Shown piece after piece: positions 45,593 to 52,179 of a stretch of 64,000 bases of DNA. A program made the translations under genes and the position numbers. The first letter of the stretch is position 1. Each line of letters starts with the position of its first letter. The notes beneath the pieces were generated by a model. The model searched no databases and had not been told where the DNA came from. It worked only from the letters and a program-made list of their open reading frames with translations. This DNA is from Tepidisphaeraceae bacterium (GTDB taxonomy: Bacteria > Planctomycetota > Phycisphaerae > Tepidisphaerales > Tepidisphaeraceae), in the NCBI GenBank assembly GCA_035998445.1, contig DASYHQ010000010.1:1-64000 (forward strand), written 5' to 3'.

Positions 45593-46405
45593 TTAAACCG
45601 AAGCGCGACGGCGACGCAGGACCATCAGGCCACCGGCGGCGACGAGGCCGAAGGTGGTGGGTTCGGGAACAGCCGTCACGCTGAACGCGAGGTCGTCGAA
45701 CGCCGCCTGCGAGAAGCCGGTGTTGTCGCCGTTATTGTTGAACAAGATCACGGCCCGCAAACTCTGCCCATCGGCGAGGGCCGCGTACGCCGTCGAAACC
45801 GGTACGAAGGTCCCCTGCGTGATCGTGCTGCGCGCGATCGATACCGGGTTGATGGCCGTGACCGGTTCGGTCGAACCGTTAGAGGTGTTGATGTTCTCGA
45901 AGCTTGCGCCCGGATCGAAGTCGACCAGGAAGCCAAGCTTGTACGTCCCGCCACTGGCGTTACCGACACCGTCCAGCCGTCGACCGAATTCCACGCTCAG
46001 GCTGTAGAGGTTGCCGGCGGTGGTCGTGGCGAACGGATCCGAGATCACGACGCCGATCTGGCCGCCGCCGGAGTTGATATAGCCATATTGGTCTCTATCC
46101 GTCAGGAACTGGCCGCTCGTTGCCTGCCCGGTGCCGATCGCGTCGGAACCCGTATGTCCTCCAGTAAAGCTGGGCAGCGCAGGCACGTCTTGGTTCTGGT
46201 CGTTCTTGCCGACCAAGTCCAGATCGGCTTTCCAGCCGTCGCCCGGGGCGTAGTAGCTATAGTCGTTGACGTTTGGCGACTCAAAGTCCGAAATCGTCGC
46301 GGCTTGCGACACGTTCATGGCGAGCGCCACGGTCGTAACCGTCGCTACGATCGACGTCATGCCAACGTTGGCAAACCCACGCATTGTTCCACTCTTCAGA
46401 CTCAT
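45593..46405 (-). CDS. PEP-CTERM sorting-signal protein
   Basis: 270 residues. The ATG at 46405 is chosen because GGGAG lies 7 bases upstream; an ATG six bases earlier is too close to that site. Signal region GMTSIVATVTTVALAMNVSQ. The body is a beta-rich secreted domain (FESPNVNDYSYYAPGDGW, LSVEFGRRLDGVGNASGGTY), perhaps carbohydrate-binding. Tail AVPEPTTFGLVAAGGLMVL followed by RRRRASV is the PEP-CTERM signal. A perfect 14-base palindrome inside its first codons (46359-46372) probably serves as an operator. Second gene of cassette C, after the LacI gene. Confidence 0.92.
   Translation of the reverse strand: MSLKSGTMRGFANVGMTSIVATVTTVALAMNVSQAATISDFESPNVNDYSYYAPGDGWKADLDLVGKNDQNQDVPALPSFTGGHTGSDAIGTGQATSGQFLTDRDQYGYINSGGGQIGVVISDPFATTTAGNLYSLSVEFGRRLDGVGNASGGTYKLGFLVDFDPGASFENINTSNGSTEPVTAINPVSIARSTITQGTFVPVSTAYAALADGQSLRAVILFNNNGDNTGFSQAAFDDLAFSVTAVPEPTTFGLVAAGGLMVLRRRRASV
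46359..46372. promoter_or_regulatory. Perfect palindrome TGCCAACGTTGGCA (candidate LacI operator)
   Basis: A 14-base perfect palindrome centred on AACGTT, as in many LacI-family operators, located 33-46 bases inside the PEP-CTERM coding sequence. The first ten bases recur twice upstream of the adjacent LacI gene (47555-47564 and 47576-47585). Confidence 0.6.
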
Positions 46406-46505
46406 TTCCATTCTCCCGTTCAATTAGAACTGATGTGACATTGCGTCCGCGCCACCGTGGGCAAGGACGCTTGAAATGCTTAACTTAAGTGATCGCTCGC
46501 CAGCT

Positions 46506-47525
46506 TTATCCATTCGGCACGCCGGCCGAGCCGCCTTCCAGAAAGTTGAACGGCACGGCTTGGCATGCCTGCACCGCATCAGGGGTGGCGACCTTGTCGA
46601 CGATCAAGCGGGCGGCCAATTCACCGAGCGCCTCGCGCGGCCAGTCCATGGCGGTCAGTTGCAGGCCGCCCAGATCCAGGTCCCGGCCATCGTCGACGAT
46701 GCCGACGATGGACAGATCCCGCGGCACCTCGAGCCCGAGACGCAGCGCTGCCACGTATGCCGCCCGCGCGTCGATCGCCGACCCAGCCACGTAAGCGGTC
46801 GCCCGCCCATCCGACCGCGCCAGCAGGGGGCGAAGGTCCATTCCAGTTACCGTCTGCCCGGCCGGCACCTGTTCCCGAATGACGGGCGACAATCCTGCCG
46901 CCTCCATCACCGCGGTGTACCCGGCCCGGCGGTCGCCGCGCGAGTAGTGGGCATTGGGAACGTGGCAAAGATACTCGATTTTCCGATGGCCCAACCGAAG
47001 CAAATGTTCGGTGACGGCCGCCGCGGCCCCGTGATCGTCGGGGAACACGCAGTCATTGCCCACTTTGGCGTTCAACCAGACGTACGGCACGCTGCACTCC
47101 TGCAGCAGCGACATCACCCGGTCGGGGATGTTCTGCGTGTAGGCGATCAACATGCCATCGGTCGACCACTCGCGGAGAAGCCGGGGGACGTACGTATCGT
47201 CGGACAAATCCTCGTCGGGCACCTCGCCGACGATCAACTGGAGGCCCTGCCGGCTCAGGTGCCGCTCTAAACCAACCAGAGTGCCGAAGGGCACGACCGA
47301 ACGCTGAGCATCGGTGCTAAGCAGCAACCCGATCGCTGACCGACGGCCTGATCGCATGCCCCGAGCCATGGTGTTCGGGCGGTAACCGAGTTGCTTGGCG
47401 GCCGCCAGAACCTTGTCCCGCGTCTCAGGGCGGAACATCTCCCCCTCGTTCAGATTCAGGATGCGGCTGACCGAACGAATGCTCAGCTGTGTCTGACTGG
47501 CAATGTCTTTTAGCGTTACGCCCAT
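46506..47525 (-). CDS. LacI-family transcriptional regulator
   Basis: 339 residues; ATG 47525 has AGGGA four bases upstream. DNA-binding region VTLKDIASQTQLSIRSVSRI, then RPETRDKVLAAAKQLGYRPN. Sensor domain: AIGLLLSTDAQ, WSTDGMLIAY, VWLNAKVGNDCVFPDDHG, LLRLGHRKIEYL, VPRDLSIVGIVDDGRD. It is closely similar in plan to the LacI protein at 24234-25241 (both share WLNA.....DCVFPDD and RPETRD). First gene of cassette C. Two TGCCAACGTT sites 30-63 bases upstream suggest self-regulation. Confidence 0.93.
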   Translation of the reverse strand: MGVTLKDIASQTQLSIRSVSRILNLNEGEMFRPETRDKVLAAAKQLGYRPNTMARGMRSGRRSAIGLLLSTDAQRSVVPFGTLVGLERHLSRQGLQLIVGEVPDEDLSDDTYVPRLLREWSTDGMLIAYTQNIPDRVMSLLQECSVPYVWLNAKVGNDCVFPDDHGAAAAVTEHLLRLGHRKIEYLCHVPNAHYSRGDRRAGYTAVMEAAGLSPVIREQVPAGQTVTGMDLRPLLARSDGRATAYVAGSAIDARAAYVAALRLGLEVPRDLSIVGIVDDGRDLDLGGLQLTAMDWPREALGELAARLIVDKVATPDAVQACQAVPFNFLEGGSAGVPNG

Positions 47526-47554
47526 CAATTCCCTCTAACACATTGCCCAGCCCA

Positions 47555-47587
47555 TGCCAACGTTGCCCTCCGTAGTGCCAACGTTAA
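47555..47587. promoter_or_regulatory. Tandem TGCCAACGTT sites upstream of lacI
   Basis: Two copies of TGCCAACGTT start at 47555 and 47576, 21 bases apart (two helical turns), matching the palindrome at 46359-46372 at 12 and 11 of 14 positions. They lie in the promoter region of the LacI gene that starts at 47525. Confidence 0.55.
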
Positions 47588-47675
47588 CCTGAACATACCT
47601 CATAAATCGAAAGAGGCAAATCCCTCGATTGTTTTTAGTGGCCCCGCTCACTCTAAGGTTCTGATCGTCTTGGCC

Positions 47676-51012: not shown

Positions 51013-52179
51013 ATGGCCTTAGCACGTGTCGCCTTACTGATTGAACGTTACCCGGGTTACCAGGAGCAGGTGCTGCGAGGGGTCCGTCATTATGCGACGC
51101 CGTCAGTCGACTGGCTGTGCCAAGCGGTTCGGCCGGCACAACATCTTCTGGCGCACGTGCAGGAGTGGGGGCCGGAGGGGATTATCCTGGGCACGTCCGA
51201 CGAGGCGATTCGCCAGCGGGTCTTAGACCTTGGCCGCCCGGTCGTCGAGGTGTTCCAGTGGTTGAACCCATCGGAACGTTGCCCACGGATCGGCTTGAAG
51301 GACACGCAGGTTGGTCGATTGGCCGCAGAGCACTTTCTGGACCGCGGGTACCGGTCGTTCGGGTTCATCCGAGGCCGCACGCACGCCCATTTTGTGCGCC
51401 TCCGCGAGCAGGGGTTTGCCGACACCTTGTCCGAGGCGGGTCGGACCTACGCGGTATACCAACAACCCGAGGGAGACGAAGAGTTTAACCCGGGCGTGCT
51501 CTGGTCCGATGGTGGCCCACATCTGCGGGATTGGGTGTTGGAACTGCCCAAGCCGGTCGCAGTCTTCGCCCTCAGCGACAACTGGGCGCTGCGCCTGCTG
51601 GAGACATGCCGCATGGCCGACGTGCAGGTACCCGAACAGGTAGCGGTGGTCGGCGTGGACGACGACGACATCCTCTGCCTGTTGGCGCAGCCCCGGTTGT
51701 CGAGCGTGGCGACCGCGGCCGAGCGTATCGGGTACGAGGCCGCGGCGCTCCTGGACCGCATGATGCATGGGGCGCCCCTGCCGGACCGCGACCTGTTGTT
51801 GCCACCGGTCGGCGTGGTGACGCGGCAGTCGAGCGACGCGGTCGCCGTTGGCGACCCGGACGTCGCCGCCGTCCTTCGGTTGATCCACGCGGCCCAACCG
51901 GTGCGCGTGGACGTCGCTGCCGTGCTGGCCGCGGTGCCGGTTCCCCGGCGAACGTTGGAGCGCCGGTTCCGTGCCGCCGTCGGCCGCGGCATTGCCGAGG
52001 AGATGCGACGCGTCCGCCTCGATCGCGCCAAACGCCTGCTCGCGACGAGCGACGATGACATGCCAGCTATCGCCGCGGCCGCCGGCTTTGGCGACGCTGC
52101 GAAATTGTCCGCCGCCTTCCGCACGAGTTTTGACGTAACTCCCTCGTCCTACCGCCACCAGTTCCGCAACGGGCGATGA
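51013..52179 (+). CDS. XylR-like transcriptional regulator (LacI-type sensor + AraC HTH)
   Basis: 388 residues from ATG 51013, where the protein begins MALARVALLIERYPGYQEQV; GGAG lies very close upstream. Sensor domain: HVQEWGPEGIILGTS, HFLDRGYRSFGFIRG, VPEQVAVVGVDDDDILC. C-terminal AraC region: VPVPRRTLERRFRAAVGRGI, RVRLDRAKRLLATSDDDM and IAAAAGFGDAAKLSAAFRTS. Same architecture as the regulator at 9657-10937. It is divergent from the PEP-CTERM/pseudopilin/GH29-like genes and probably controls them. Confidence 0.92.
   Translation: MALARVALLIERYPGYQEQVLRGVRHYATPSVDWLCQAVRPAQHLLAHVQEWGPEGIILGTSDEAIRQRVLDLGRPVVEVFQWLNPSERCPRIGLKDTQVGRLAAEHFLDRGYRSFGFIRGRTHAHFVRLREQGFADTLSEAGRTYAVYQQPEGDEEFNPGVLWSDGGPHLRDWVLELPKPVAVFALSDNWALRLLETCRMADVQVPEQVAVVGVDDDDILCLLAQPRLSSVATAAERIGYEAAALLDRMMHGAPLPDRDLLLPPVGVVTRQSSDAVAVGDPDVAAVLRLIHAAQPVRVDVAAVLAAVPVPRRTLERRFRAAVGRGIAEEMRRVRLDRAKRLLATSDDDMPAIAAAAGFGDAAKLSAAFRTSFDVTPSSYRHQFRNGR

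Follow-up and report, generated by a model that had tools for sequence, protein, structure and literature searches.

Introduction

Regulatory elements of the kind described here are already known: tandem LacI-family sites 21-22 bp apart, and operators inside genes, as in lacZ and purB. In the survey by Ravcheev et al. (PMC4052901), most LacI-family motifs carry a central CG, more than 75% of the sites lie 30-140 bp before the start codon, and the distances between sites peak at 13, 22 and 32 bp. RafR and ScrR are named there as regulators with obligate double sites at 21-22 bp. The survey also reports autoregulation in 72% of the regulators and assigns less than 1% of the catalogued sites to coding regions, where the proven cases are lacZ and purB. 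Camas et al. (PMC2978694) link Arg at AA-20 of the repressor to G at NT-6 of the operator. For E. coli, another study (PMC4132739) describes LacI roadblocks placed downstream of a promoter, with an approximately constant reduction at low polymerase flux.

The locus that we have analysed, which lies in a stretch of 64,000 nt (hereafter the window), can be compared with each of these systems. It is similar to the RafR and ScrR double sites (PMC4052901) in having even palindromes with a central CG and a pair upstream of the regulated gene (21 bp apart here, 21-22 bp there), whereas its lineage and sequence differ, an in-gene site is added, and its operators are predicted from sequence. With the PurR site of E. 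coli purB, which acts as a transcriptional roadblock, it shares a LacI-family operator inside a coding region; by contrast, the present in-gene site occupies codons 11-15 and is found together with a pair close to the promoter, and its roadblock function is putative. Like lac O2 in lacZ of E. coli, it would be a secondary operator inside a gene under the repressor's control, within its coding sequence, but the repressor seems to have no tetramerisation tail and lacI is itself the first gene of the cassette. The locus is a real and ordinary kind of regulatory element, with an unusual in-gene site and an interesting family of paralogues.

Results

The protein encoded at 46506-47525 on the minus strand (339 aa) carries the HTH and the periplasmic-binding-protein-like effector domain of the LacI family, with PF00356 at 37.7 bits (cut-off 27) and PF13377 at 74.2 bits (cut-off 26.5). 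PurR is its best solved relative. An alignment by eye gives I-R-S-V-S-R for AA-15 to AA-20 of its recognition helix, and AA-20 is therefore Arg. The gene order on the minus strand is lacI (47525-46506), a PEP-CTERM protein gene (46405-45593) and a pseudopilin-like gene with N_methyl and DUF1559 (45451-44651). The PEP-CTERM gene lies 100 nt downstream of lacI and its motif scores 20.0 bits, just below the cut-off of 20.7; its start was taken by eye at MSLK, with GGGAG upstream. No close orthologue of the repressor was found, the best relative among the matches listed being 43% identical. Five of the 26 family genomes, its own included, pass 1e-50, and a search of the genome contigs gave one match at 28% identity. 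In the literature searched, no paper describes this locus or cassette, as judged by title or abstract start. The cassette is surrounded by alpha-L-fucosidase-like and other glycoside hydrolase genes, which hint at a glycan-derived sugar as the effector. Near the same genes, at 51013-52179 on the plus strand of the window, another regulator combines a sugar-binding-like domain with an AraC-type HTH (XylR-like).

Scanning the window with the 10-mer TGCCAACGTT gave exact matches at 46360-46369 (+), 46364-46373 (-), 47555-47564 (+) and 47576-47585 (+). None of 100 dinucleotide shuffles reached four matches (shuffle mean 0.08). The first two matches are the arms of a perfect palindrome, TGCCAACGTTGGCA, at 46360-46373, just as the initial annotation had placed one within the start of the PEP-CTERM gene. 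This site, putative operator 3 (minus strand, arms TGCCAAC and GTTGGCA), falls on codons 11-15 counted from MSLK, and its centre lies 38.5 nt 3' of the ATG at 46405, with operator 2 at a distance of 1195 bp. With the alternative start at 46384 the palindrome stays within the coding sequence; with a start at 46360 it would stand just before the gene, but the signal peptide would then, by inspection, be left without a basic N-terminus.

The remaining two matches lie upstream of lacI, within putative operators 1 and 2 (both minus strand). Operator 1, AGGTTAAC/GTTGGCAC at 47575-47590, holds the copy at 47576-47585 and is near the presumed transcription start; operator 2, AGGGCAAC/GTTGGCAT at 47554-47569, holds the copy at 47555-47564 and follows exactly 21 bp downstream. 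Measured from the lacI ATG, their centres lie 57.5 and 36.5 nt upstream, respectively, and the pair reaches a score of 90 at spacing 21 by our palindrome-aware score. The double site proposed earlier holds as two exact copies of the 10-mer at 21 bp, and not as two full palindromes: each copy is a good half-site with an imperfect opposite arm, whose outer bases match in 1/4 and 2/4.

Read in the direction of the gene, the lacI leader consists of TTGCCT, 16 nt, TATGTT, operator 1, operator 2 another 21 bp on, and the start codon. The weak -35-like hexamer TTGCCT (47614-47619) and the weak -10-like hexamer TATGTT (47592-47597), both on the minus strand, together show 8/12 matches and form the presumed lacI promoter, whose -10-like hexamer stops 9 nt short of the operator 1 centre. 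Another candidate, likewise with 8/12 matches, overlaps the operators. A simple promoter scan accepted no lacI promoter, as the TTGCCT/TATGTT candidate fell below its threshold; the same scan found no separate PEP-CTERM promoter, though it had also missed that of lacI, and so weighs neither for nor against an effect on cassette expression independent of the lacI promoter, which the initial annotation had suggested.

Several published regularities can be recognised at the locus. The palindrome at 46360-46373 is even, perfect and CG-centred, and the upstream sites have a central CG with imperfect symmetry. G occupies NT-6 in all four upstream half-sites and, by inspection, in both arms of the palindrome, as expected with Arg at AA-20. 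The upstream pair falls into the range of 30-140 bp before the start codon whereas the in-gene site does not, and the spacing of 21 bp nearly coincides with the 22-bp peak of the published distances.

Across the 5.84-Mb genome, TGCCAACGTT has 11 strand matches, four of them in the focal 1.2 kb; together with the shuffles, this confirms that three 10-base sites within about 1.2 kb go beyond chance. A reversed-pattern control gave five matches genome-wide, so the seven matches outside the locus represent the background level. The exact 14-mer palindrome occurs at one place, the focal one, and one mismatch adds two further places. The genome scan with up to two mismatches, which the initial annotation had proposed, returned 50 places versus 33 for the control; sites with two mismatches therefore carry little information. 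Random scatter in coding sequence describes only the seven other exact 10-mers, six inside likely ORFs at chance frequency and one between likely genes on contig C8, whereas the focal sites are concentrated.

The exact 13-mer CAACGTTGGCATG is present at three genomic places: the in-gene palindrome, operator 2 and the intergenic position C8:98766. The C8 site (C8:98763), which precedes a GH5-like gene (PF00150) by 39 nt, was first read as a remote target. It lies in the loop of an inverted repeat whose arms occur once in the genome, and chance alone would give about 0.2 exact copies of the 13-mer, so it is now kept as a candidate only. The operator-like sequence there, TGCCAACGTTGG (G000:C8:98754-98791, L001:3955-3992), stands after a Dabb-domain gene and shortly before the GH5-like gene, and may be either a distant target or an unrelated hairpin. 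Two further sites, C45:104731 and C45:104611, were set aside as both lie within one long coding ORF.

The upstream regions of other LacI genes were then compared. The 91 regions comprised those of all 34 LacI HTH matches in the genome, 33 of which are above the cut-off, and 57 from relatives chosen among the matches listed; L020 and L021 (flank cut by a contig end) and L106 (200 bases only) were left out before counting. Several genes of the genome have paired palindromes just after a promoter: TTCATCTCGATA twice, 21 bp apart, at C45:157468, CAACCGGTTGC twice, 22 bp apart, at C32:239369, and CGAGTAAGT twice, 22 bp apart, at C21:8721. At these three and at the focal gene, the centre of operator 1 follows the -10-like hexamer by 5-9 nt. 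Over the 91 regions, pairs scoring at least 88 numbered five at 21 bp and four at 22 bp against a shuffle expectation of 0.05 per spacing, a background that the shuffles understate for palindrome pairs, as real non-LacI tiles gave 11/1649. Even against these tiles the nine of 91 regions stand out (Fisher p = 2e-7), a value to be taken as exploratory because the first pairs were already known when the palindrome-aware score was designed. Among AT-richer control tiles, one in 148 had such a pair.

The pairs are confined to a minority of the genes, as 82 of the 91 upstream regions are without one at 21-22 bp. Not all nine are convincing as genuine operators, and the central CG is missing in at least one site of four of them (C37:44362, C36:21548, C13:29559 and G039:C88). 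Counting direct repeats alone at 20-22 bp gave a modest excess, with 8/91 regions versus a shuffle mean of 1.2 and a maximum of 5 over 200 shuffles. Little came of searching the upstream regions of 19 LacI genes for individual CG-centred palindromes of 16 bp; the informative signal is the repeats between sites, not single palindromes. At C10:66911, ATACCGGTGT and ATACCAGTAT, 22 bp apart, look like a pair by eye but fall below the palindrome-score threshold.

The relation between Arg and G was tallied over the LacI pairs as well. G was found in 9 of 11 pairs with Arg and in neither of the two without (Fisher p = 0.08), which is suggestive only; G040:C1 and G039:C25 break the rule. The former is L014 (G040:C1:2738434-2739378), whose repressor has Arg at AA-20, yet its pair has A at NT-6. 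Upstream of this gene lie the pair GAACAAGCGTTTGTTC/GAACAAACGCTTGTTC at 21 bp and a third palindrome, AAACGTTT, nearer the gene.

With 34 LacI HTH matches in the genome (33 above the cut-off), the focal sites might in principle serve another regulator, or the repeat might be a sequence feature with no binding protein. The concentration of the sites at the focal LacI gene, together with the separate palindromes that other LacI genes carry, makes this explanation very improbable. That the sites are LacI operators, as first proposed, agrees with their anatomy, their autoregulatory position, their concentration at the locus and the recurrence of the architecture elsewhere.

Such palindromes also tend to stay with their own genes. 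With up to two mismatches, those of C45, C32 and C49:11282 were each found genome-wide only at their own two sites. The C21 pattern gave one site, as did its control, and that of C49:26160 at three mismatches was at background level apart from its own two sites. Two cassettes are divergent: C49:11282, with sites C49:11122 and C49:11236 between the PEP-CTERM gene and lacI, and C49:26160, with sites C49:25994 and C49:26087 between a pseudopilin gene and lacI. As these divergent cassettes carry a site by each gene, they provide the best indirect evidence that LacI proteins of this type control PEP-CTERM and pseudopilin genes. A PEP-CTERM and/or N_methyl gene stands beside lacI at the focal locus, C45:156598, C49:26169, C49:11273, C13:29550, C13:107216/111354 and C10:66068, some of these assignments being just under the Pfam cut-off or based on terminal sequence only.

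Discussion

We consider it highly probable that the three AACGTT-centred sites are private operators of the 46506-47525 repressor, which would repress from the tandem pair and use the in-gene site as a roadblock or auxiliary operator. The locus is most likely an autoregulated LacI gene heading a LacI/PEP-CTERM/pseudopilin cassette, of which the genome has several. Most likely as a dimer, the repressor would bind its own promoter at the tandem pair. At 21 bp, about two helical turns, both sites would lie on one face of the DNA, and binding would probably be cooperative. Repressor on the pair would block lacI initiation and, if the three genes share one transcript, as we infer, would keep the PEP-CTERM and pseudopilin genes off too. 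A sugar-type effector would release the repressor and switch the cassette on.

The in-gene palindrome is probably the tightest of the three sites, and as a roadblock or auxiliary operator it would tighten repression of the genes after lacI. Block of elongation, as the initial annotation suggested, would be a reasonable role. A roadblock would be the simplest one, because the palindrome lies downstream of lacI and of any intergenic promoter; its location in coding sequence is where a PurR/purB-type roadblock would be placed.

Alternatively, only the upstream pair may work, and the palindrome may be a coding coincidence of the signal peptide (Phe-Ala-Asn-Val-Gly-Met). A search with each locus's own motif over several kb found no in-gene site at 4/4 paralogous loci (L028, L030, L032, L033), and sites in coding regions are rare, below 1%, in the LacI-family catalogue (PMC4052901). 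Nevertheless, the genome has no other exact copy of the palindrome, which is also the most symmetrical of the three sites; it has CAACGTTGGCATG in common with operator 2 and is located in the next gene of the cassette. We regard such a coincidence as unlikely.

LacI has a C-terminal tetramerisation tail. Judged by its sequence, the focal protein ends about 5 residues past the segment aligned to LacI 4-329, which leaves no room for this tail, so that the tetrameric repressor needed for lac-type looping seems to be lacking. Looping of the palindrome with the upstream pair, like lac O2 with O1, is thus less likely than a roadblock and on the whole quite improbable, even though the same sequence recurs 1195 bp apart and lacZ is known to hold a LacI site deep within the gene (PMC4052901). 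A roadblock or auxiliary operator remains our preferred role for the in-gene site, which would join the few LacI-family sites known from coding sequence.

The focal locus supplies an exact set of predicted operators for one among the numerous LacI repressors encoded in this genome, whose gene content suggests that it is planctomycete-like. Paralogues with different recognition helices and palindromes would constitute a natural data set on LacI specificity and on the insulation of duplicated regulators. Tentatively, and with somewhat more doubt than confidence, we suggest that each repressor of the paralogous cassettes may have drifted to its own cassette-confined palindrome, so that the cassettes would act as mutually insulated surface-protein switches, the focal one with an additional brake in signal-peptide codons.

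The cassettes at L028, L030, L031, L032, L033 and L035 of the same genome combine LacI with PEP-CTERM and/or N_methyl/DUF1559 genes in varying order and orientation. In different genomes, the related LacI genes L089, L088 and L017 (G023:C97:49265-50230) have common upstream pairs of the GCAAGCGTGTGCG type, whose spacing of 55 bp differs from that of the 21-22 bp class.
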